From contig QZKU01000075.1 of the NCBI GenBank assembly GCA_003598085.1, positions 10,474-74,473 on the forward strand: a stretch of DNA of 64,000 nucleotides, written 5' to 3'. Below, piece by piece: positions 34,354-55,272 of this stretch. The DNA comes from Candidatus Abyssobacteria bacterium SURF_5 (lineage in GTDB: Bacteria > Abyssobacteria > SURF-5). A program made the position numbers and the translations under genes. Within the stretch, counting starts at the first letter, position 1. Each line of letters opens with the position of its first letter. The notes beneath the pieces were generated by a model. It had not been told where the DNA came from and searched no databases. It saw nothing but the letters and a program-made list of their open reading frames with translations.

Positions 34354-35535
34354 CTAATCTTCCTTTCCGAAAATGGCCACGGTGCAGGTGAAAGAACCCG
34401 GCCTGCCGCCAAGGTTGTGCGTCAACCCCAGCCTGGGGTTCTTGCGCTGGCGCGCTCCCGCCTTCCCCTGGAGCTGTTTATATACCTCATAAATCATTCG
34501 GATCCCGCTCGCTCCGATCGGATGCCCGAAACATTTCAGGCCACCATCAATGTTAATGGCCAGCTCGCCGTCCTTATCAAAGGTTCCAGCCTCATGATAT
34601 TCAGGGCCCTTCCCCCTCGGAGCAAAGCCAAGGTCCTCCGTGATGACCAACTCCGTGATGGTGAAGCAGTCGTGCACCATCGCCATGTCGATCTCTTCGA
34701 GCGGCACCTTGACGTCGGCCTCGCGATATGCCATTTGCGACGCCCGCACATTTTCCTCGAAATGAACGAAATCATAATCGTCCTGAAGCATCCCTTGCTG
34801 GCCGCCGACAGCCATCCCGATGCCTTTGACAAGCACGTAATCGTCCCTGAACTTTCTCGCCAGCTCCGGGGTGGTGAGAATAGCGGCCGCCGAGCCGTCA
34901 CTCACTCCGCAGCAATCGAACAAGCCAAGCGGCCAGGCCACCATGGGCGCCTTCAATGCCTGTTCGAGTGAGATCTCTTTTTGGAAATGCGCCTTCGGGT
35001 TTAAAGCTCCGTTCTTGTGGTTCTTTACCGCGATCCGCGCGAGCGTCTTCTTGAGCTCGTCCATTGGCACGTTGTAATGGTGCGCGTAGCGCGTCGCCGC
35101 AAGTGCGAACTGTACCGGGGGCGGTGTATTGACATCGACCATGCTGCTGCCGGGAGCGCCGAAACCTCCGAGTCCCGTCCAGCCGGTATCCTTCAGCTTT
35201 TCCACACCGATCGCAAGCACGATGTCGTGTATGCCGGCAGCAACCGCATAGCAGGCGTTCCGGAACGCATCAGTCGCCGTGCAGCACGCATTTTCAACGC
35301 GGGTGATCGGCACATAATCCAGTTTCAAGGCTGCCGCGGCCGGCTGGCCGGTCATGCCGGATTGCACCGTCCCCAGCCATGCCGCTTCGATGTCCTTCGG
35401 ATCTATTCCCGCATCTTCATAGGCCTCATATGCCGCCTCGACCATGAGGTCACTGGCGTCGCTCTCCCAGCGTTCGCCGAACTTGGAGCAGCCCATTCCA
35501 ATTATTGCGACCTTGTCTTTTATTGATGCACTCAT
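34354..35535 (-). CDS. SCP2-type thiolase, copy 1
   Basis: 393-residue thiolase-superfamily protein of the SCP2/lipid-transfer type. Nucleophile region ENACCTATDA (C84), HDCF motif in MVHDCFTITELV, and GGLKCFGHPIGASG with the catalytic His. The usual C-terminal CxG of biosynthetic thiolases is replaced by HNLGG; in SCP2-type thiolases the HDCF Cys takes the acid/base role (family knowledge). Predicted to cleave or form a C-C bond of an acyl-CoA, possibly in complex with the adjacent DUF35-containing protein. The ribosome site is GAGGTGAG. It lies 9 bases after the synthase-like gene in one operon. Confidence 0.88.
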   Translation of the reverse strand: MSASIKDKVAIIGMGCSKFGERWESDASDLMVEAAYEAYEDAGIDPKDIEAAWLGTVQSGMTGQPAAAALKLDYVPITRVENACCTATDAFRNACYAVAAGIHDIVLAIGVEKLKDTGWTGLGGFGAPGSSMVDVNTPPPVQFALAATRYAHHYNVPMDELKKTLARIAVKNHKNGALNPKAHFQKEISLEQALKAPMVAWPLGLFDCCGVSDGSAAAILTTPELARKFRDDYVLVKGIGMAVGGQQGMLQDDYDFVHFEENVRASQMAYREADVKVPLEEIDMAMVHDCFTITELVITEDLGFAPRGKGPEYHEAGTFDKDGELAINIDGGLKCFGHPIGASGIRMIYEVYKQLQGKAGARQRKNPRLGLTHNLGGRPGSFTCTVAIFGKED

Positions 35536-35544
35536 TTTCTCACC

Positions 35545-36972
35545 TCATTCCTTGATCCGGGCAGGAATGCATTTCCAGAAATAGTTGGGAACGCCCCCGA
35601 CGGTAGCGACCCTGCGAAACGACATTTCAAGCGGCATATCCACTGCGATCTCTTCGATTTCGCGATCGGTCATCGTGCACAGCATCCGACCGCCGCCCTC
35701 GAAGTTGACGATACAAACAGCGAGCGGGATATCCATCGTGCCCGCGATATAATCCAGCGAGTACGTGAATAATTTCCCTTTCTTATCAGAGAAGCGCACC
35801 TTGTCGAAATCATCCTTCGTGCGGCATCTCGTGCACACCCGCTGAGGCGGGTACTGCACCGTACCACAACTCCTGCATTTCACCCCATGCAGTCTCAGAA
35901 TTCGATCACGCTCCCTCCATAGTGCGGAGGACGACGGCGGCGATGCCGCGGGACGACGTGATGCGGCCTCGGCCGAAAGGATTCCCCTCCATTGCGCGTA
36001 TGAGGCATAATCAGGCACATTCTTCTTCGACTGCAGGGCTCGCCTGAATCCTCCCCTCTTCTTCATCGTATCGATTCGATCGGTAACCCGAAGAAGGAAA
36101 ATATCAATCCCGTTTCCGTAACTGATCAGCAGAATCCTTTCTCCCGGCTCCGCCTCCTCGAGCGCGCCTGCCAGCATCAACAGCGGATGCGCACAACCGG
36201 TCAGCCCGACAGCCCCGAACAGGCCGTCCTGCAGTCTCGACGGCTCAATTTTCAGCAGCTTCGCGATCTGCAAATGCCACCGGTAGTCGGGCGCGTATGA
36301 AACGATTTTGGCAAAATCCGCAGGCGCGCATTTGTACTTTTTCATGCATTCGGAAACAGCCTGGCGAAAGGCGCTCACAAATCCTTGCTCGATAACAAAT
36401 CGATCCTCCCAGGATTTCACATACTCATCTTTGTCTGTTCTCCAGACATCGCTGATCTCGTGATACATCGTATAATAGCCCTGGATTTCGGCGACCACGT
36501 TCTCAGATCCCACCACCACGGCGGCTGCGGCGTCTCCGAAGAGCATCTCAAACTGCGAGCGCGGAGGCGGCATTCGCGTGTCGGCGGCAGCAACAAGAAC
36601 ACGGCCTGCGCTTCCCGACTGTACGGCATCCGCAGCGGCGCGCAGCGCCTGCGTTCCGGCCCGCAACGAATCCGAGAAATCGCTCGTTCGTATATCGGTG
36701 CGAAGGTCTGCGGCGGCCGCCATCGTCACCGAAGCCCCTCTCTCGAGGAAAGGAGCGGTCGTTGATGCGAAAAATGCACCGTCAATTGATTCGCGATCTA
36801 CTCCATTCAGGCAATCAAGTGACGCGGCAACTGCCATGGTGAGGCTATCTTCATCGAAATTTGCAACCGCTTTCTCACCCGGCGCACCCGGGAATCCCCA
36901 TTCCCGGGAGATAATCTCCCGCGCCAGCCGCCACGTTGGAATGTAAGTGCCGCATGCGACTATTCCAACCAT
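35545..36972 (-). CDS. HMG-CoA-synthase-like protein fused to DUF35 zinc-ribbon/OB domain, copy 1
   Basis: 475-residue fusion. Residues 1 to about 320 have the HMG-CoA-synthase/KAS III-like fold (VGIVACGTYIPTW, NFDEDSLTMAVAA, AVGLTGCAHPLLMLAGALEEAEPGERILLISYG). Residues about 350-475 are a rubredoxin-like zinc ribbon (CRSCGTVQYPPQRVCTRC) followed by the DUF35 OB-fold. The Cys nucleophile expected after SDFS is Leu (L103), so it probably cannot act as a synthase. In archaeal and steroid-degrading systems DUF35 proteins scaffold thiolase/synthase complexes, so a binding role with the following thiolase is inferred. The ATG at 36972 has AAAGGAG; a TTG at 36978 is less likely. Confidence 0.85.
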   Translation of the reverse strand: MVGIVACGTYIPTWRLAREIISREWGFPGAPGEKAVANFDEDSLTMAVAASLDCLNGVDRESIDGAFFASTTAPFLERGASVTMAAAADLRTDIRTSDFSDSLRAGTQALRAAADAVQSGSAGRVLVAAADTRMPPPRSQFEMLFGDAAAAVVVGSENVVAEIQGYYTMYHEISDVWRTDKDEYVKSWEDRFVIEQGFVSAFRQAVSECMKKYKCAPADFAKIVSYAPDYRWHLQIAKLLKIEPSRLQDGLFGAVGLTGCAHPLLMLAGALEEAEPGERILLISYGNGIDIFLLRVTDRIDTMKKRGGFRRALQSKKNVPDYASYAQWRGILSAEAASRRPAASPPSSSALWRERDRILRLHGVKCRSCGTVQYPPQRVCTRCRTKDDFDKVRFSDKKGKLFTYSLDYIAGTMDIPLAVCIVNFEGGGRMLCTMTDREIEEIAVDMPLEMSFRRVATVGGVPNYFWKCIPARIKE

Positions 36973-37047
36973 ATGCAATCACTCCTTTCAAATGTCCTTG
37001 AGATAAGGAGCACTCACCACAAGAACTGCATTCTTCCCGCGGGGCCA

Positions 37048-37076
37048 AATATATGCAATCGCCGGTCAAATGTCAA
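37048..37076 (-). promoter_or_regulatory. Sigma-70 promoter TTGACA-N17-TATATT
   Basis: On the - strand, TTGACA (complement of 37071-37076) and TATATT (complement of 37048-37053) are 17 bases apart. It lies about 76 bases upstream of the synthase-like start at 36972 and should drive the first synthase/thiolase pair. Confidence 0.75.
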
Positions 37077-37164
37077 CAACGGCGCAACGCCCTCCCCGCC
37101 TGCCAACACTGTTCTGAGCCAACATCCCCGAGCTTGAGGTGCGCGCCCGGCATACGAAAACTTC

Positions 37165-37937
37165 TCAGCGGGTGTCTGGGGGCTGTCCCTCATAGCGAAT
37201 CGTCGCCAGGCACAGCGCCTGGTTTCGATCCTCGATGTGCAAGGCCTGCTCGAGGCCCGCCGCATCCAGGTTGCAGTTGATTGCCTCCTTCGTCAGCCGC
37301 AGACCCAGCGGATTCTTGCGACACATTTTATCTGCCAGGTCGCGGGCTTCATCAAGGAGTGTCTCGCGCCGGACAATTCGGCTGACCATCCCCAGTTTGA
37401 GTGCGGTCTCAGCGTCCATGAAATCGCCGGCAGCATGAACTCATATGCCCGCCCTGCCCCGATCATTCGGGGCAGAAAATAGCTGGAGCCGCAATCCGCG
37501 CCGCCCAGCCCAATGTTAATGTAGGCAGCCCCGAACCGGACGTCGCGGGAAACGATCCGCACGCAGCATCCGAGTGCGAAACTCAATCCTCCGCCCACGG
37601 CGGCGCCGTGGATCGCGCCGATTATCGGTTGAGGCGCCTGCCGCATCTTTAGCAGCAATCGCGAGATGCGCGCCTGCAGTCGATATATGATTTTGAGGTC
37701 GGCGCTCAACAGCTGTCCGGCCGTCTCTTTCAAGTCAAGCCCGGAGCAGAATCCCCTGTCTCCCGCGCCACACATGATGATCACGCGTGTTGCGTCGTCA
37801 TGCCGCCGCGCGTTCCAGAATTCTTCAAGCTCTATGATCATGGTTTCGTCGATGGCATTGACCCGGTCTGGCCGGTTGAGAGTCAATAATCCGACAAGGT
37901 CAGAGACTTCATAGCGGATCGACTTGTATTGAGTCAT
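37165..37937 (-). pseudogene. Enoyl-CoA hydratase/isomerase (crotonase), frameshifted
   Basis: Two overlapping - strand frames together give a complete crotonase of about 257 residues. The upstream frame (37293-37937) has TLNRPDRVNAIDETM, the oxyanion segment GFCSGLDLKET and AAVGGGLSFALGCCVRI up to GAGRAYEFML. The downstream frame (37165-37419) continues with MDAETALKLGMVSRIV and NPLGLRLTKEAI to the C-terminus. Restoring the expected L-T-G-D-F-M-D-A-E junction needs one extra base near 37430-37434, so a single base appears deleted. This may be a true lesion or an assembly error. The intact enzyme would hydrate or isomerise enoyl-CoA between the two thiolase pairs. Confidence 0.85.
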
Positions 37938-38137
37938 ACGGTTACCTCCAAAACAATTAGTGGGGCTTCAAAGACTCATGGCCTCTCAATACCGGATGGC
38001 GTGGGGAATCCATAATATCATAAATCGGGTGATTTGGATGCTGCGCGGACCGGGCGATGGAGGTTTAAGTCGATGCTGAAAGCAACTGCAATGCGCAAAT
38101 CGGCCAATAAAGGTGGGGCAGCGCTGAAGGAGATCCT

Positions 38138-38464
38138 CTAATGAAATTCGACGTGCTGGACGACGTCGTTTTTTTTGATCTGTTCAGTCAATATGCGCTT
38201 TGTTTCTTCGCTACGGATGGATTCGACTTCGGAGACTTCAAGATTATCCCTATTGCGGCGGGTCTTCCAGCCGAGAATATAGCCGGGGACAATTGCATAG
38301 CGACAGCCGGTGATTCCGCAGCATGAGGTATCCACCACTCCCATGCCGACCACATAAAGAACCTCACGTCCATTGAATGGAAGACGCACTTCCTTCTCGA
38401 GGACGTAATGCCCTCCGATAGAGCGAACCTCTTCGTCCAGTGGAATGTGGGTATACTCTCGCAT
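38138..38464 (-). CDS. Small conserved-looking hypothetical protein with CCG-GC motif
   Basis: 108-residue protein with no recognised domain. A hydrophobic strand precedes a cysteine-containing loop (VVGMGVVDTSCCGITGCRYAIVPGY written as VDTSCCGITGCR, around residues 43-54), which could bind a metal or cluster. The C-terminus is charged and helical with EETKRILTEQIKK. The start at 38464 has AGGGGAA upstream; an open frame to 38497 exists. It sits between the crotonase and the second thiolase, all on the same strand, so it may share their transcript. Function unknown. Confidence 0.65.
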   Translation of the reverse strand: MREYTHIPLDEEVRSIGGHYVLEKEVRLPFNGREVLYVVGMGVVDTSCCGITGCRYAIVPGYILGWKTRRNRDNLEVSEVESIRSEETKRILTEQIKKNDVVQHVEFH

Positions 38465-38541
38465 ATTCCCCTGTGGCTGAAAACTCTGGAATATCACTCC
38501 TGTTCCAGAATAAGGATCAATTTTGCAGAGAAGAAGTGAAA

Positions 38542-38567
38542 GCGGCGACTCTTGCTGCAGCCGCCGC
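38542..38567 (-). terminator. Weak hairpin after thiolase copy 2
   Basis: A 6-bp inverted repeat (GCGGCG at 38542-38547, CGCCGC at 38562-38567), 15 bases past the thiolase stop on the - strand, is followed in that direction by TTTCACTTCTTCTC. The loop is 14 bases and the T tract is broken, so attenuation or partial termination is the most that can be claimed. Confidence 0.3.
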
Positions 38568-38581
38568 CCTCAACCGAAAAA

Positions 38582-39793
38582 TTACACGCCGTATTTGCCG
38601 ACAATTGCTATGCTGCACACGTTCATGAACGGGAAGCCGCCCAGATTGTGTGTCAGCCCGATCTTCGGGTCCTTGAGCTGGCGCTTATCGGCTCTGCCAT
38701 GAAGCTGCAGATACATTTCATACACCATTCGCAAGCCTGATGCCCCGATCGGATGACCGAAGCACTTCAGCCCGCCGTCAACCTGGCAGGGAACTCCACC
38801 GCCGTCGAGATTATAGAAGCCATCCATCACGTCCTTCAGCGCGCCTCCCTTGGGCGAAATATGGAGGTCTTCCATCGTGACAAACTCGGTGATGGAGAAG
38901 CAATCATGCACTTCCATCATCGAGATTTCCTTGCGCGGATCCTTGATTCCGGCTTCCTCATACGCCTTCCGGCTTGCCTTTTCGGTTGTAACGAAGTGGT
39001 CGCCGTCCCATTCGTTGAAACCGAGTTCCTCGCCGCTGCTCAAAGCGAGTTGAAGCGCCTTCACGGTGATAAAATCCTTCTTGCCGAGATCCTTCGCGAT
39101 CTTTGGAGTCGTCACGATGGCGCAGGCCGAGCCATCGCTTACACCGCAGCAATCGAACAGGCCGAGCGGATGCGCGATAATGGGCGCTCCCAGGATCTGC
39201 TCGACCGTCACCGGTTTTCGCAGATGCGCTTTGGGGTTAAGAGCGCCATTCGCATGACTCTTTGCAGACACGTGCGCGAGAGCAAGCTTCAGCTCATCGT
39301 CCGGAATCTTGTATTTCGCGGCGTACGCGCTCGCAAGCTGCGCGAATGAGCCGGGTGCGGTAATCTGAGGAAACCAGAGCCACGTCAAACTTCCTGAACT
39401 CGAGCCGCCGCCGGGCAACCCGCCGTAGCCGGTATCCTTCAGCTTTTCGACTCCCATGGCCAGACAGATGTCATACGCGCCGGATGCAACCGCATAAACG
39501 GCTCCCCTCAGTGATTCCGTCCCGCTCGCACAGAAGTTTTCAACGCGGGTGCATGGGATCTTATCCAGCCGCAGCGCCATCGAAAGCGGCAGGGCGCTTT
39601 TGCCGACATTCACTTCGTCCATACACGTGCCAAGCCACGCGGCCTGGATGTCCTTCTTCTCGATTCCCGCGTCCTCCACGCACTCGGTGAACGCTTCGAC
39701 CATCAGCTCTTCCGCGCCTACGTCCCACCGTTCGCCGAACCTCGTGCAGCCCATGCCGATTATTGCGACCTTATCTTTTATTCCGGTTGCCAT
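38582..39793 (-). CDS. SCP2-type thiolase, copy 2
   Basis: 403-residue paralogue of the protein encoded at 34354, aligning over its whole length (same KDKVAIIGMGC opening and GLFDCCGVSDGSA block). Catalytic motifs: ENFCASGTESL (C88), VHDCFSITEF, and GGLKCFGHPIGASG; the C-terminal region again has HNLGG. A Gly/Ser-rich segment (GGLPGGGSSSGS, around residues 125-136) is specific to this copy. It follows the second synthase-like gene by 13 bases with a strong AAGGAGG ribosome site. It probably acts on a different acyl chain than copy 1. Confidence 0.88.
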   Translation of the reverse strand: MATGIKDKVAIIGMGCTRFGERWDVGAEELMVEAFTECVEDAGIEKKDIQAAWLGTCMDEVNVGKSALPLSMALRLDKIPCTRVENFCASGTESLRGAVYAVASGAYDICLAMGVEKLKDTGYGGLPGGGSSSGSLTWLWFPQITAPGSFAQLASAYAAKYKIPDDELKLALAHVSAKSHANGALNPKAHLRKPVTVEQILGAPIIAHPLGLFDCCGVSDGSACAIVTTPKIAKDLGKKDFITVKALQLALSSGEELGFNEWDGDHFVTTEKASRKAYEEAGIKDPRKEISMMEVHDCFSITEFVTMEDLHISPKGGALKDVMDGFYNLDGGGVPCQVDGGLKCFGHPIGASGLRMVYEMYLQLHGRADKRQLKDPKIGLTHNLGGFPFMNVCSIAIVGKYGV

Positions 39794-39806
39794 TGCAGTT
39801 TCCTCC

Positions 39807-41261
39807 TTATGCTTCCGCTTGCGGAAGAGCCTTCCAGAAGTAGCCGTGGAAGCCGCGTTCCTTGTCGTGATACCGTTTGCGGAAAGCCATTTTGACCGTT
39901 TTTCCGACCTTCAGGTCGCCAAGTTCGCAATCGCTGAAGTCGGCAAGAATTCTTCCGCCTCCTTCGAACTGGACCATTCCGTAGCAATTCGGCGGCTCGA
40001 CGGAAACAGATAACATGTCGCCGGTGAACGTCTTGATGTGAGCCGGCGTGTCCGCAAATTCGACCGACTCTTGAGATTTGACCGAACCGCAGTCGGGATT
40101 GACGCAGATATCGTTGCTCGGGATCTGGCGCGTGCCGCATTTGCGGCATTCGCCGCCGACAAAACCAAGGAGGAACTTGCGTTTTCTGTAGAGAACGGTG
40201 AGAGCCGTCTGAGTGGGCGCTTCCGCCCGAATCCCCATTTCCGTCTGCATCAGGTCGCGGAACCGGAGGAACTTCTGGTAAACATCCACTTCTTTCCGGT
40301 TCGCGAGAGAACCCTTTATGCCCTGGCGCGGTGGCAGAGACTTGATTTTATCCGTCACCTGGAACAGCAGCGCATCCGACCCCTGCCCGAAGCTCGCCAC
40401 GAGAATCTTGTCGCCCGGCTGGGCCTCCTCGAGCGCGGAGATGAACATCACGAGCGCGTGGGCCGCTCCGGTCTCGCCGCATACTTCGTGCATATTATCC
40501 ACCAACTGCTCGCGCTTGAACCCCATGCCCTTGGCGATACCCTGGTGCTCCCGTTTAAAGAAGCACGGGAATACCAGCTTCGAGATATCCGCCGGAGACA
40601 TGTTGCACTTCTTAAGCAGCCCGGTGACTACTTCGGGAATGATCTTTGAATAGCCCTCATCACGAACCCACCGCTCTTCCCAGTTGTAATCGTATTTATT
40701 CATCGACCCGCGATAATGATCAACAAAATCGTAAGATACCGAATAGCTCCCGAGGCATTCGGCAATGACATTCTCCGTCCCCAGCAGAAGAGAGGCCGCA
40801 CCATCACCGTACCACATCTCATGAAAATAGGCCGACTTGGTTATGCGCATATCGGCAGCCGTTAGGAGAACCGATTTCTTTTCGCCGCCTTTTAATGCCT
40901 CAAGGGCAGTCACCATCGCCGTCGTCGCTGTCTTTTGGGAAGCGGTGAAGTCGGCGGTCAGAACATTGTCCTTGAGATTCAAGGCCGTTGCTACAATTCC
41001 CGAATTCTGCCGATCAGCAAAGGGGGCCGTGGTGGAGGCCATGTACAGCGCATCAACTTTGCTCTTATCCATCCCCACCAGGCAATCACGGGCGGCGGCG
41101 ACCGACATAGTCAATGAGTCTTCATCCCAATTGCACATCGAACGCTCGCCCTGGGCCACCATCATGATGGCGGGGGCGAACCATCCCATGGCCTGAAAGA
41201 CTGCCATCCGCTGCAGTCTCAAACGAGGGATGTATCCTCCGTATGCAGTGATACCGATCAT
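39807..41261 (-). CDS. HMG-CoA-synthase-like protein fused to DUF35 zinc-ribbon/OB domain, copy 2
   Basis: 484-residue paralogue of the protein encoded at 35545. The start at 41261 (MIGITAYGGYIP) has GGAGGAG upstream; a longer frame to 41372 lacks support. The synthase-like half shows NWDEDSLTMSVAA, LTADFTASQKTATTAM and AAHALVMFISALEEAQPGDK; the position of the nucleophilic Cys is Gln (Q109). The C-terminal half has the zinc ribbon CRKCGTRQIP...CVNPDCG and an OB-fold with GMVQFEGGGRILADF. A scaffold or acyl-CoA-binding partner of the adjacent thiolase is inferred; synthase activity is unlikely. Confidence 0.85.
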   Translation of the reverse strand: MIGITAYGGYIPRLRLQRMAVFQAMGWFAPAIMMVAQGERSMCNWDEDSLTMSVAAARDCLVGMDKSKVDALYMASTTAPFADRQNSGIVATALNLKDNVLTADFTASQKTATTAMVTALEALKGGEKKSVLLTAADMRITKSAYFHEMWYGDGAASLLLGTENVIAECLGSYSVSYDFVDHYRGSMNKYDYNWEERWVRDEGYSKIIPEVVTGLLKKCNMSPADISKLVFPCFFKREHQGIAKGMGFKREQLVDNMHEVCGETGAAHALVMFISALEEAQPGDKILVASFGQGSDALLFQVTDKIKSLPPRQGIKGSLANRKEVDVYQKFLRFRDLMQTEMGIRAEAPTQTALTVLYRKRKFLLGFVGGECRKCGTRQIPSNDICVNPDCGSVKSQESVEFADTPAHIKTFTGDMLSVSVEPPNCYGMVQFEGGGRILADFSDCELGDLKVGKTVKMAFRKRYHDKERGFHGYFWKALPQAEA

Positions 41262-41439
41262 TTTTGCTCTCCTCCGTTTCTCGTAAATTGTTGCCCGACC
41301 CGAGCTGAATGAAGGCCGCCACCAGTAGAGCCAGTGCTTGTATTTTTCCGACCTCGCTTGGGGCAGAGGCACGGCTCCTGCAGACGACGGGGACGCTCCT
41401 TCCCTGTTTCAGCAAGACATCCGAGTTTATGCGCTAGAT

Positions 41440-50579: not shown

Positions 50580-50642
50580 ATCGCCGGCGTAATTGTCGGA
50601 ACTACGGGGGTTCTGCGTCGCTGAGAGCCTGTATTCAGAACG

Positions 50643-50672
50643 CAAAAAAAGAGGCCGAAATTCTCGGCCTCT
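50643..50672 (-). terminator. Intrinsic terminator of the EF-hand repeat protein gene
   Basis: On the - strand, a perfect 9-bp stem (AGAGGCCGA at 50650-50658 with TCGGCCTCT at 50664-50672) around a 5-base loop is followed by a run of T (A at 50644-50650 on the + strand). It lies 30 bases beyond the stop of the gene at 50702. Confidence 0.85.
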
Positions 50673-50701
50673 CTCCTCGCAGTATGCACTTCAGCAGTGA
50701 A

Positions 50702-51937
50702 TCAATTATTTCGCGCCTTCTTGCTCTTCTTCGCTTTCGCCTTCTTCCTGGCGCCGTCATCAGGGTTCTGTTTCGACTTCTTATATTCTTTCTTGGCGGC
50801 AGCCGGATTGTCGTCGGCTTTCCTATGAAGAGCCTTGGTCGTCTCGCCGTGATCTACCGCACCTTTGCGTAAATCCCTTGTCTTTCCCGGATTCTCTTTT
50901 CCATCCTTGTAAAGTCTTCGGGTCGCGCCCCTATGCTCCTCGGCGTCTTTATATCCTTCTCTTACGGCCTTCGGGTTTTTCTCGCCGGCCCGATGCACCT
51001 TTTCCGCCGCGTTGGGATGCTCTTGCGCATCCTGATACACCTTCTTCGTCGCATGTGGATGTTCAGCCAGCGGCTTGCGCTGCCGGTATGCCTCCTGCGC
51101 AACCTCCGGATGAGCGTTCAGCCACTCGCGATTCTGGTACATCTCCTTCGAGAATTCCGGATGCGCGTCCAGATATCGCCTGTTCTTGTAAACTTCCATG
51201 GAAACATCGGGGTGCTGCTCCAGCCACTTCCGATTCCCATACATCTCTTGCGCGACCTCGGGATGCGCATTCAAATACCAGCGATTTGCATAGGCTTCTT
51301 TTGCAACCTCCGGATGGGCTTGCAGCCATTTTCGGTCTGAATACATGCGCTGCGCCGCTTCCGGATGCCGGCTCAGCCACTCGCGATTCGAATACAATGA
51401 TTTCGCGACCTCCGGATGACTCGCCAGCCATTCGCGGTCGCCGTACATCTGTTCAGCGACCCCGCGGTTCTCATTCAGCCACTCGCTGTTCTTTGCCAGT
51501 TCCCCAGCAACTTCAGGATGGCTTTTCAGCCAGTTCGCGTCCTGAAAATTTGTGTTTGGATAGTCCGCCTTCAAGCTTTCCAGAGCCTGGCGTTCCAGGT
51601 TTCGATGGGTCTCCATCTCCCACTGGCGCTGCATCTTAACTTCGTCATAAGACAGGAGACCGTCGCCGTCCGCGTCAGTCTTTGTGAAACGTCCGGAATC
51701 TCGGTAGAATTCGAAATCCCTCTTCGCGCTCGAAATCTCGGCAGAATCCAAAAAGCCGTCTCCATTCGCGTCAGCTTGATCCCAGCGATCCTGATCGTAC
51801 TGATCGACATATGATGTCCGCTCCTCTTCACGGACCGACTGTGCCGCCGCAAAACCGGATGAAACCACTATTACTCCTGCAACAGAGGCACATATCACTA
51901 CTGTCTTTCCGACGTCCCTCAGTCTCGACATCATCAT
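50702..51937 (-). CDS. Secreted EF-hand protein with 17- and 14-residue tandem repeats
   Basis: 411-residue exported protein. Signal peptide about 1-33 (VVICASVAGVIVVSSGFAAA). Two EF-hand loops follow, DANGDGFLDSAE (residues about 56-67) and DADGDGLLSYDE (about 88-99). Then come nine 17-residue units of the form AxEMYxNRxWLxxHPEV (residues about 144-296), then seven 14-residue units of the form TKxxYKDxxEHPxA (about 297-394), and a Lys-rich tail. Three adjacent ATGs (51937, 51934, 51931) follow GGAGGTGG and cannot be separated. An extracellular, calcium-binding, helical repeat protein is likely; the family is not recognised. It has its own promoter and a strong terminator. Confidence 0.82.
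   Translation of the reverse strand: MMMSRLRDVGKTVVICASVAGVIVVSSGFAAAQSVREEERTSYVDQYDQDRWDQADANGDGFLDSAEISSAKRDFEFYRDSGRFTKTDADGDGLLSYDEVKMQRQWEMETHRNLERQALESLKADYPNTNFQDANWLKSHPEVAGELAKNSEWLNENRGVAEQMYGDREWLASHPEVAKSLYSNREWLSRHPEAAQRMYSDRKWLQAHPEVAKEAYANRWYLNAHPEVAQEMYGNRKWLEQHPDVSMEVYKNRRYLDAHPEFSKEMYQNREWLNAHPEVAQEAYRQRKPLAEHPHATKKVYQDAQEHPNAAEKVHRAGEKNPKAVREGYKDAEEHRGATRRLYKDGKENPGKTRDLRKGAVDHGETTKALHRKADDNPAAAKKEYKKSKQNPDDGARKKAKAKKSKKARNN
50756..51508 (-). repeat. Coding tandem repeats, nine of 51 bases then seven of 42 bases
   Basis: Within the EF-hand protein gene, 51050-51508 encodes nine consecutive 17-residue units and 50756-51049 encodes seven consecutive 14-residue units. The consensus of the first set is A-(Q/K)-E-M-Y-x-(N/D)-R-x-W-L-x-x-HPE-V. 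The second set loses three residues around the WL pair but keeps a Y/H and the N/H-P ending. The units tile without gaps and account exactly for the region up to the Lys-rich tail. Confidence 0.9.
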
Positions 51938-52105: not shown

Positions 52106-54607
52106 TCAACAATGTTCGGTTCTTTCGATGATATGTTCTTGCACGCGCGGGGATTGCTCGACGAAATAGGCGCTGTAGCCTGCGACCCTGACCACCAGGT
52201 CGCGATACTTCTCCGGATGCTCCCGGGCATCCAGCAGCGTCTGTTTGTTGACCACAGTAAACTGCATCTGGAACCCGCCGAGGGCAAGATAGGTTTTCAT
52301 GATATCTATGAATTTTCCGATATTCTCGTCCTTGAAGGTGTCCGGGTTGAATTTCATGTTGAAAATGCTGCCATTTTCCATTAAATGATGGTCAAGCTTC
52401 GCTACCGATTTGACCGTGGCTGTCGGGCCGCGCCGATCACAGCCGCGAGAGGGTGCGACGCCTTCCGTCAGCGATTCAAACGCATAGCGCCCGCTGGGGA
52501 GGGCTCCAACGGCGCTTCCCAAAATCATCGCCAACTCGATCGACCAGATGCCCGGATTATACACGCTCCCCCAATAATCCCGATGATTTTTCACTTCCTT
52601 CAGGAAAACACTGCAGCTTTCACGCGCGATTTCGTCGACCGAATCGTCATCATTCCCGAATTTGGGCGCCGCATTGAGCAGCATCTGGCGCAGCCTCTCG
52701 CCCGACGCGAAGTTATTTTTCAGCGCCTCGACGAGTTCGGTCATCGTGAGTTTTCGCTCGTCAAACACCAGCTTTTTGACAGCGGCCAGCGAGTCGGCCA
52801 CGTCGGCGACTCCAATTCCTTCGATGCCCGCAAAATAATATTTCGAGCCGCCGTCCGTCAGGTCGAGCCCCGACCGCATCCCATCATCGGTGATCGAAGA
52901 AAGGAACGGAAGCGGCCGCAAAAGGGAGTGACCCATTTCAATCGCAGAAATGGATTGATTAAACTGCGTAACGGCGAATCTAACCTGCCTGGCATAAGCG
53001 CTCAGCAGTTGATCATATGTTTCGAAGTCTGCGGCTTTGCCCGTTTGCGGGCCAACCTGGTCGCCGAAAATAGGACAGCGCCCGTTATGAAGCGCCAGCT
53101 CCAGGCATTTTGCCAGGTTTACGAACCCGATGCTGGATGGGCCGATAGACGTGCCCGCGCTGCCCATTTCGATACAGCCGATGTCGGCGTACTCGTGGGC
53201 GTCCATTTCCTCAAAGCCAAGCCGCATCAGCGCCGGGATCATCACCTCATCATTCATGATGCCTGGCTGGCCTTTTCCGCGCCCGATCAGACGCGCGCAG
53301 GCCTCGAGCAGTTCCGGCGGAGAATTCTTGTGAAGCCGCACGGCCAGGCTGGGGTGACCCAGGCCTGTATTCGCGTGAGCGTGCATGATCAGGTATGTCA
53401 GCTCATTGGTCGTGTCGCGTCCATTCACGTCCTTGCCGCTCAACGTGATGGTCACGAGATTGCCGCGCCTCGGATAGAAAAGCGACCCCTGCTGCCGTCC
53501 GCTGTAGAGCCACGAACTTTGTCCGATGCGAATGAGGAAATTTTCGAGCAGCTCGACCGCTCCGGTGCGCGAAAGAGACCGGTCCTCAAGCCCCTTGCGA
53601 TATATCGGGTACAGAATCTGATCCATGCGGCCGGGGCAGATCGATATCTCGCAAGATTCCATCTGATTCGCAACCAGCATCAACAGCGAGCATTGAATCG
53701 CCTCGAAAAAGTTCCGCGCCTGCCTCTCGGGGACGTGGAGGCAGGCGTCGCGAATCCTCAGCAACTCTGCCCGGCGCCGGCCGTCTTCTTCCTTCGCCGC
53801 GAGATTCTCGGCATACCGCGCACAGCGCTGCGCATGGGCGATCAAGCCCTCAATCGCGATACTGACCGCTTTGTAAAAGGAGATCTTCTTCGGGGTGAGC
53901 GCATCCTCCGGAGAGTGCTGCAGCCTCTGAACATTTCGAACGGCTTCGTCACGAATGCTGCCGAGCCCATACTTGATGCCGCGATCGATGTCGACAATTA
54001 CGTGTCCAATGCCTGCAAGCATATTGTAAGCGAAAATGAGGCCGCGCTGATGGACGAGGTCGTCGTTGTGCGGCTTCATGTGGTTGTAGTAATCCTGTAG
54101 TGCTTTGCCGCGCCAGTAGGGCGCGATCTCCTTCAATTCCGCTATCTCGTCATCGCTGATCGAAACCGGATTGATGTTGAAATTGCTCGCTTCCTGCCAC
54201 GCGTCCTCATCGAGATATGAACTGCATAATTCCGGAAACACCTCCGAGCACAGCATCTTGCCGCCCGCATAACCGGCAAACAAATCGTTCTCGTTCAGCA
54301 CAACGGTTACATTTTCCAGATAATGCCGAAAGGCCTTCGCAAGCCGAAGAATTTGGGGCTCGCCCTCTGTCTCCCGAAAACTCTGCGTGTAGTAACGAGC
54401 GCGCTCGATGCAGATGCTAAACTGGGTGTTGAAGAAGGCTTCGCGCCGCCGGCGATTGATCTCGGTCGAAGGCCCGCTCTCGGAGGCAATGTATTTTATA
54501 TGGCTGGTATTGCCGTTGCCGCCGCTCTCCGCCAGAGCCCGAATGAACCTTGTTTCGCCGACTCGCGATTCATCTGATTTCTTTCTTGTTGAGATCGTCG
54601 AAGTCAT
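52106..54607 (-). CDS. Glycyl-radical enzyme of the PFL/diol-dehydratase/lyase type
   Basis: 833-residue glycyl-radical enzyme. The glycyl motif RVAGYSAYF near the C-terminus places the radical Gly at about G810, and the thiyl cysteine lies in EYADIGCIEMG (C478) with the Glu two residues on (E480). GC-x-E is typical of the eliminase branch (glycerol/propanediol dehydratase, choline lyase, isethionate lyase) rather than benzylsuccinate synthase. The substrate cannot be named from these motifs. The start at 54607 overlaps the TetR stop as ATGA; the open frame to 54790 lies inside that gene. No radical SAM activase is adjacent. It requires strict anoxia to work. Confidence 0.92.
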   Translation of the reverse strand: MTSTISTRKKSDESRVGETRFIRALAESGGNGNTSHIKYIASESGPSTEINRRRREAFFNTQFSICIERARYYTQSFRETEGEPQILRLAKAFRHYLENVTVVLNENDLFAGYAGGKMLCSEVFPELCSSYLDEDAWQEASNFNINPVSISDDEIAELKEIAPYWRGKALQDYYNHMKPHNDDLVHQRGLIFAYNMLAGIGHVIVDIDRGIKYGLGSIRDEAVRNVQRLQHSPEDALTPKKISFYKAVSIAIEGLIAHAQRCARYAENLAAKEEDGRRRAELLRIRDACLHVPERQARNFFEAIQCSLLMLVANQMESCEISICPGRMDQILYPIYRKGLEDRSLSRTGAVELLENFLIRIGQSSWLYSGRQQGSLFYPRRGNLVTITLSGKDVNGRDTTNELTYLIMHAHANTGLGHPSLAVRLHKNSPPELLEACARLIGRGKGQPGIMNDEVMIPALMRLGFEEMDAHEYADIGCIEMGSAGTSIGPSSIGFVNLAKCLELALHNGRCPIFGDQVGPQTGKAADFETYDQLLSAYARQVRFAVTQFNQSISAIEMGHSLLRPLPFLSSITDDGMRSGLDLTDGGSKYYFAGIEGIGVADVADSLAAVKKLVFDERKLTMTELVEALKNNFASGERLRQMLLNAAPKFGNDDDSVDEIARESCSVFLKEVKNHRDYWGSVYNPGIWSIELAMILGSAVGALPSGRYAFESLTEGVAPSRGCDRRGPTATVKSVAKLDHHLMENGSIFNMKFNPDTFKDENIGKFIDIMKTYLALGGFQMQFTVVNKQTLLDAREHPEKYRDLVVRVAGYSAYFVEQSPRVQEHIIERTEHC

Positions 54608-55272
54608 ACGGTAGTCTCCTTGCCGTTCTCCGATTGCCGGCCCTCCCGCCTCGCCATTCCGTAGAAAATGATCTCGAGCGCGTTCTTGAATAAATCCTCG
54701 AGACTCACGCCCATCACCATAACATTCTTGCGCTCGGCCAACATCACCAGCCCATCCATCATGCCCCACAGAACGTTCGTCGCTTTCCACGGGTCCATCC
54801 GCGCCAGTTCTTCGCCTTTAATGCCCTCACTGATAACGCGCTCGATCATCTTCAATAGCGCGATCGCCTTCGCATCCAGCGCCGCGGACATCTCCGTGCG
54901 CTCCTTCAGCGTCGTCTCATGCAGGTGTATGAACGCGAGGATATCGAAATACTCCGTGTGCTCAACATAAAAACGGTGGTAGGCATGCGCAATCGCCGAC
55001 AATCTCGCTAATGCGCCCATGCCCGGCCACGATATCGCCTGCTCTGCCATTCGATGGAAAATATCTATCCCATCACCATAGAGCGCCATGTAGATTTCTT
55101 CTTTGCTCTTGAAGTACAGATAAAATGTTCCCGTGCTGACGCCGGCACGGTCGGTGATCATCTCGATCGTGGTGTCGCGGTAGCCTTTTTCAAAAAACAA
55201 CTCCCTCGCCGCATCCTTCAAGAGGCGCCTTCGCTGCTGCTTATCTGCAATACTTCTAGCTCTCGTACTCAT
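54604..55272 (-). CDS. TetR-family transcriptional regulator
   Basis: 222-residue TetR repressor. N-terminal HTH (residues about 12-58): LLKDAARELFFEKGYRDTTIEMITDRAGVSTGTFYLYFKSKEE, quoted here by its parts AARELFFEKGY and AGVSTGTFYLYFKSKEE. The C-terminal ligand domain has FDILAFIHLHETTLKERTE and NVLWGMMDGLVMLAERKN. The start at 55272 has a GGGGG ribosome site. It is the first gene of an operon with the glycyl-radical enzyme and probably represses both in the absence of the enzyme's substrate. A palindrome at its own promoter is the likely operator. Confidence 0.92.
   Translation of the reverse strand: MSTRARSIADKQQRRRLLKDAARELFFEKGYRDTTIEMITDRAGVSTGTFYLYFKSKEEIYMALYGDGIDIFHRMAEQAISWPGMGALARLSAIAHAYHRFYVEHTEYFDILAFIHLHETTLKERTEMSAALDAKAIALLKMIERVISEGIKGEELARMDPWKATNVLWGMMDGLVMLAERKNVMVMGVSLEDLFKNALEIIFYGMARREGRQSENGKETTV

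Follow-up and report, generated by a model that had tools for sequence, protein, structure and literature searches.

A rare, multi-phylum family of EF-hand helical-repeat proteins with an unusually short unit and a partly conserved, putative stress-cassette neighbourhood

Introduction

The periplasmic EF-hand protein CaBP of Caulobacter and the ECF factor SigV are linked in a regulatory loop; a CaBP deletion mutant makes more matrix, and a link to an anti-sigma factor was left open by the authors (2026, PMC13171946). The protein described here, from Candidatus Abyssobacteria bacterium SURF_5, resembles CaBP in its apparent Sec-type signal sequence and its EF-hands, and in that the gene is tied to an ECF sigma factor in some members of its family. 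It differs in that CaBP has 133 residues, three EF-hands and no repeat array, with the sigV promoter inside cabp (PMC13171946), and in that no sigma gene adjoins the array gene in the window, by which we mean the whole stretch of 64,000 nucleotides that was analysed.

Among repeat proteins the nearest likeness is to the HEAT, ARM and TPR solenoids, in that the array is predicted to consist of stacked short helices and its model scores Z 7-9.5 against HEAT/ARM proteins, values which are common for helical repeats. The unit of those proteins is 34 residues long in TPR and about 42 in ARM; that of the array, at 17 residues, is much shorter and has no sequence match to them. The MHB family reaches a score above its Pfam cut-off and carries what we take to be the same helix-corner motif as the array (xLxx[HN]PExx), but the score is a sum over repeats and the architecture is unlike. 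Proteins of the DUF3106 family (PF11304), for which the literature searched yielded no paper naming the family, are likewise exported-looking and made of short units punctuated by Trp and Pro, with a period of 18; profile comparison nevertheless shows no homology with the array, the hhalign probability being 0.1 on the units, and otherwise the N-terminal signal alone aligns.

Results

Anatomy of the gene and its product

The array gene occupies window 50702..51937 on the minus strand and encodes 411 residues, from an ATG at 51937 to a TGA stop at 50702-50704. Further in-frame ATGs are found at 51934 and 51931, and since a GGAGG sits just upstream, a later ATG may be the true start. A genome search found the gene in single copy in the 5.1 Mb window genome. 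Residues 1-33 (51839..51937) read as a signal-peptide-like N-terminus, with a basic start, a hydrophobic core and FAAAQ. They are followed by an EF-hand pair, residues 34-104 (51626..51838), whose loops DANGDGFLDSAE and DADGDGLLSYDE fit the 12-residue EF consensus: acidic or polar residues at 1, 3 and 5, Gly at 6 and Glu at 12. The Pfam models EF-hand_7/EF-hand_1 recognise the pair, which relatives conserve; on this region PF00036 scores 25.4 bits (at its cut-off) and PF13499 27.2 bits (E 5e-06, slightly under its cut-off of 30). A linker, residues 105-129 (51551..51625), is conserved among those relatives that have EF-hands, and AlphaFold2 models a long helix over residues 97-125 with block pLDDT 72-93.

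The remainder of the protein is made up of nine 17-residue units with the consensus HPEVAxExYxNRxWLxx (residues 140-292, 51062..51520), seven 14-residue units with the consensus [HN]PxAxKxxYxDAxE (residues 293-390, 50768..51061) and a Lys-rich end (residues 391-411, 50705..50767), all on the same strand. Net charge runs from -9 in the EF region through -2 in the 17-mer array to +6 in the 14-mer array and +8 over the last 18 residues; the protein has 16 His residues. Just 3' of the TGA, at 50638..50690 on the minus strand, lies a hairpin with a GC-rich core, GAGGCCGA-GAATT-TCGGCCTC, and T7 (fold -28.3 kcal/mol, z -5.8). It is likely an intrinsic terminator, consistent with the transcript ending there; a terminator scan did not flag it, probably because the stem extends into the T run.

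Two repeat periods

The HP anchors of the units stand at residues 140, 157 (NR instead), 174, 191, 208, 225, 242, 259, 276 and 293, and after that at 307, 321, (335), 349, (363), 377 and 391, giving nine intervals of exactly 17 followed by seven of exactly 14. The second 17-mer is degenerate, with NRGVA in place of HPEVA, and the HP/NP pair has gone from two of the seven 14-mers. BLOSUM62 self-similarity over residues 126-300 is 2.46, 2.96 and 2.52 at lags of 17, 34 and 51, against a maximum of 0.008 in 500 shuffles; over residues 286-400 it is 1.22 at a lag of 14, with a shuffle maximum of 0.65, about half that value. The slight excess at lag 34 over lag 17 is a hint that the 17-mer units are paired.

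These data bear out the preliminary description of this DNA, in which two EF-hands were said to precede nine 17-residue units, seven 14-residue units following without a gap, and a Lys-rich tail; its proposal that the shorter unit had lost three residues around the WL pair can be placed more exactly, as the 14-mer retains HPxxAxKxY and the three residues are missing between the Y and the next HP, the position of NRxWL in the 17-mer. Its label of a secreted EF-hand repeat protein holds for the EF-hands and the helical repeat, which are real, and the N-terminus makes the protein exported-looking.

At identical residues of the 17-mers, codons agree in 131 of 275 pairs (47.6%), close to the 45.2% expected from codon usage, so that the units are old and have been kept alike by selection on the protein; the same comparison rules out a recent expansion of the repeat by duplication of DNA. 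A run of 14-mers with matching signature also occurs in an Omnitrophota protein (L018), after a region of DRRED repeats, and the gammaproteobacterial protein (L023) terminates in some 14-mers, while three others (L008, L017 and L022) have one final spacing of 10. The spacings 17, 14 and 10 step down by about one helical turn each time. A 14-mer profile run against 386 genomes found no further genome and, as far as these sequences go, the switch from 17 to 14 recurs but is rare.

The repeat and the named families

No Pfam or NCBIfam model accounts for the repeat, and the EF-hands alone can be named with confidence. Pfam MHB (PF16525) does pass on the 411-residue protein, with 32.1 bits against a cut-off of 27.4; tested by their own Pfam cut-offs on nine relatives, MHB passes in four, RecA_C in six and APOBEC1 in two. 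Four units alone score 26.0 bits against MHB, below its cut-off. The element common to these matches is the corner WLxx[HN]PE, a helix end followed by a proline-capped helix, and the MHB and RecA_C cut-offs are reached because weak matches to this corner add up over ten copies. Judged from the sequences, we regard the MHB, RecA_C and APOBEC1 matches as reflecting shared local geometry and not descent. Identification as a haemophore from the MHB score was therefore rejected, given the RecA_C passes in relatives and the sub-threshold score of the four-unit piece; and the match of the family profile to RecA 3cmu in the PDB (E 2.3e-08) was set aside as a short motif summed over multi-copy RecA fusions, not homology. 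Models of TPR, ARM and HEAT were absent from the Pfam matches to E 5. The preliminary description, which did not recognise the repeat as a named family, thus survives in the sense that no match is convincing. A profile hit to a described family, which it had set as its refuting condition, is formally supplied by MHB passing its cut-off, but that match is here judged non-homologous.

Predicted structure

Structure prediction, which had been suggested as a check on the array, gave confident repeating helices over the 17-mers and a poor model over the 14-mers. From the single sequence, AlphaFold2 predicted short helices in alternation, at pLDDT 83-94 across residues 111-220; with an alignment of 11 sequences the block mean pLDDT was 83-97 for residues 111-280 and fell afterwards, with values mostly of 45-73 beyond residue 290, so that the model of the 14-mer region is unreliable. 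The helices alternate between 6 and 9 residues, mostly with one-residue breaks at the H of HP and the N of NR. Each unit would then pair a helix of 6 residues (REWLxx) with one of 9 (PEVAxxxY), with tight corners at H/N-P and N-R, and the 17-residue units are predicted to stack into a regular alpha-solenoid. Foldseek returned no match at E < 0.001. With VIA-align the closest solved folds were HEAT/ARM solenoids (top Z 9.5, rmsd 3.8, 167 residues aligned); according to its documentation such solenoid matches are common for helical repeats, and being generic they exclude no family.

Relatives and their distribution

A direct protein search of 60 genomes gave nothing credible except the gene itself; matches in one genome (G053) traced to a different 17-residue repeat at the DNA level, its frames mostly broken, and were put down to chance. 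Relatives were instead detected at the DNA level, by a degenerate pattern that requires two tandem [WYF]Lxx-HP[ED] units with a spacing of 17 residues and that was tried first on the window. Scanning 84,980 genomes with it yielded 22 stretches, 11 of which are true array genes on reading frames, their products 33-48% identical to the 411-residue protein; the other half (for example in Paenibacillus, Bacteroidetes and Anaerolineaceae) proved to be unrelated frames or proteins. Profile searches verified the array in all eleven genomes that contribute true array genes and added one more (G172), with a protein most like the one from a Nitrospirae genome (L012).

The family thus counts 13 genomes: the window genome and 12 others, which fall under at least seven phylum-level names. 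They are assigned to Hydrogenedentota, Nitrospirae, FCPU426, Goldiibacteriota, Omnitrophota (two), Desulfobacteraceae, another deltaproteobacterium, Gammaproteobacteria, Myxococcales and Bacterium BMS3Abin06, together with G172. The family is rare, being present in 3 of 386 family-spread genomes and in 1 of 198 genomes from the phylum of G172; the window's own phylum has three genomes in the set, and the array gene is absent from the other two. No relatives were found on plasmids. Viral scans by tblastn found none, and the pattern gave one large viral protein, which is unrelated.

Spacing of the [HN]P anchors in the relatives is almost always exactly 17. The EF-hand region is present in eight of the 13 family genomes and absent from five, so that Ca2+ is not essential to the family, and in the Omnitrophota members the first EF loop is degenerate. 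On their sequences, the array proteins form an undescribed family, exported-looking, with 17-residue units, usually an N-terminal EF-hand pair, and a basic end.

Two further features of the relatives were observed. Omnitrophota and Nitrospirae-like members (L018:5709-7280, L012:3437-4486 and L031:1141-2070) have an additional DRREDVRDRRED region following their 17-mer array, and in L018 the 14-mer array comes after this region. A deltaproteobacterial locus has a second, short array fragment (L022:3100-3306), an 84-residue frame without a clear start some 2.3 kb upstream of the full gene, which is probably a remnant of duplication.

A sigma/anti-sigma cassette beside the array gene

In six relatives the array gene is accompanied by genes for a zf-HC2 anti-sigma protein, a small acidic protein and DUF3106, and in five of them by an ECF gene. 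The cassette lies within a few kb of the array gene in five relatives and is separated from it by a contig end in the sixth. In one Omnitrophota genome (L051:9383-11552) the order, all on one strand, is ECF sigma, zf-HC2 anti-sigma, small secreted acidic protein, DUF3106 and array gene; the other (L085:1024-3104) has the same genes in the same arrangement. In G172 (L056:8862-10657) the array gene is followed by ECF, zf-HC2-like, small-protein and DUF3106 genes, and in Myxococcales (L055:135-1968) the neighbours of the array gene are a long protein with an aromatic C-terminal residue, ECF, zf-HC2 and the small protein, and DUF3106 lies at the edge of the contig (C51:135-521). The Goldiibacteriota locus (L052) reads zf-HC2, small protein, DUF3106, an outer-membrane-barrel-like protein and array gene. 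An ECF gene was not seen at this locus, and the barrel-like protein has no Pfam match. In FCPU426 a full cassette (L084:6525-8383) ends one contig, and the array gene and the end of a barrel-like protein lie at the end of another (L053); the two are likely parts of one split operon.

DUF3106 is present in 6 of the 12 genomes of relatives, compared with 29 of 386 in the background. All six anti-sigma proteins have an apparent membrane span followed by an acidic LExLE tail at their end, and the small secreted neighbour is made mostly of this LExLE motif; the anti-sigma profile itself matches the small protein in two genomes (G390 and G172). In seven of the 13 family genomes no cassette adjoins the array gene, some of these genes being on short contigs. 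The sequences upstream of the family genes showed no ECF-type promoter in common, and a GAAC-N18-TCTG string, being present only in the window, was treated as chance.

By eye, similar pieces of the cassette are also seen at two DUF3106 loci without an array gene (L090 and L091), which makes it probable that the cassette extends beyond the array family. The DUF3106 protein, too, is built of tandem repeats, each 18 residues long (RWxxLPPEQRxxLRxRxx; L051:9383-10153 and L084:7856-8383), and the cassette with its array gene thus sets two different short-helix repeat proteins side by side.

The window genome has no cassette of the relatives' kind: DUF3106 is absent from it, its three zf-HC2-like matches all lack the acidic LExLE tail, and the array gene stands alone. 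Its surroundings were read by eye. Directly upstream on the same strand, about 170 bases away, is a glycyl-radical-enzyme-like gene (window 52106-54790), itself preceded by a TetR-like gene. Window 34357-41372 holds two alike tandem pairs of a thiolase-like and a synthase-like gene, with smaller genes in between. The long plus-strand run at window 1-26000, some 25 kb distant from the array gene, looks like an exopolysaccharide synthesis cluster, with genes resembling those of glycosyltransferases, deacetylases and ligases.

Discussion

Our preferred reading, held tentatively and at a probability of roughly 0.45, is that the array protein is an extracytoplasmic, Ca2+-responsive scaffold of the envelope, belonging to an undescribed solenoid family and probably tied to envelope stress; we infer that it is exported and binds Ca2+, and likewise the details of its fold, its partner and its role in stress. 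The protein would work outside the cytoplasm, in the periplasm or at the surface, scaffolding the cell envelope. Ca2+ bound by the EF-hands would position the rigid linker helix; the solenoid would display a row of repeated sites for a partner that is itself extended or repetitive; and the 14-mers and Lys residues of the basic end may hold an anionic envelope polymer. As the array gene adjoins anti-sigma, DUF3106 and usually ECF genes in several phyla, the protein is probably made, or sensed, in the envelope-stress response; the cassette neighbourhoods of six relatives are the best clue to such a role.

A purely structural protein of the surface or matrix would also be highly regular and basic at its end: the solenoid would be a spacer or glue, the Lys end would bind exopolysaccharide, the EF-hands would only stabilise, and the cassette would be incidental. 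Polysaccharide-like genes seen by eye near some relatives (glycosyltransferase-like at L008, deacetylase-like at L022, Wzz-like at L011), the apparent exopolysaccharide cluster at window 1-26 kb and the raised matrix production on deletion of CaBP in Caulobacter (PMC13171946) speak for it. However, the cluster in the window is distant, most relatives have other neighbours, and the DUF3106 cassette recurs in six genomes; we consider this reading somewhat unlikely, and it has most room in the window genome, where the array gene has no cassette beside it.

The cassette could also be given a more direct part, in which the array, together with DUF3106, binds the LExLE tail of the anti-sigma protein or competes with the small LExLE protein, so that the ECF sigma factor would be under the control of Ca2+ or of the load of protein outside the membrane. 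The acidic tail common to all six anti-sigma proteins and the small secreted neighbour, the profile match between these two in two genomes and the mostly basic character of the arrays or their ends would suit this scheme, but the window genome and several relatives have the array gene without LExLE proteins, and we think it quite improbable. To the idea of a haemophore that binds haem as in the mycobacterial MHB family we give next to no weight: the MHB scores of the protein and of four relatives and the 16 His residues are set against the RecA_C and APOBEC1 passes in the same nine relatives, the failure of the four-unit piece, a shared part that is the helix-corner motif, and a different architecture. 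Returning to the envelope scaffold, a wider claim, that its 17-residue unit represents a distinct class of very short two-helix solenoid with a 14-residue variant and is also, in several phyla, the Ca2+-responsive extracytoplasmic part of an undescribed ECF module whose anti-sigma factor and small secreted protein have the acidic LExLE tail in common, is one we find doubtful.

What is new here is a rare multi-phylum family of helical-repeat proteins that combine EF-hands with a unit of unusual shortness and have a partly conserved, putative stress-cassette neighbourhood. The family is found mostly in uncultivated lineages. Its predicted alpha-solenoid unit, half the length of a TPR, is of interest for the study and design of repeat proteins, and its recurrent neighbourhood provides a testable function and draws attention to the cassette of sigma, anti-sigma, LExLE and DUF3106 genes.
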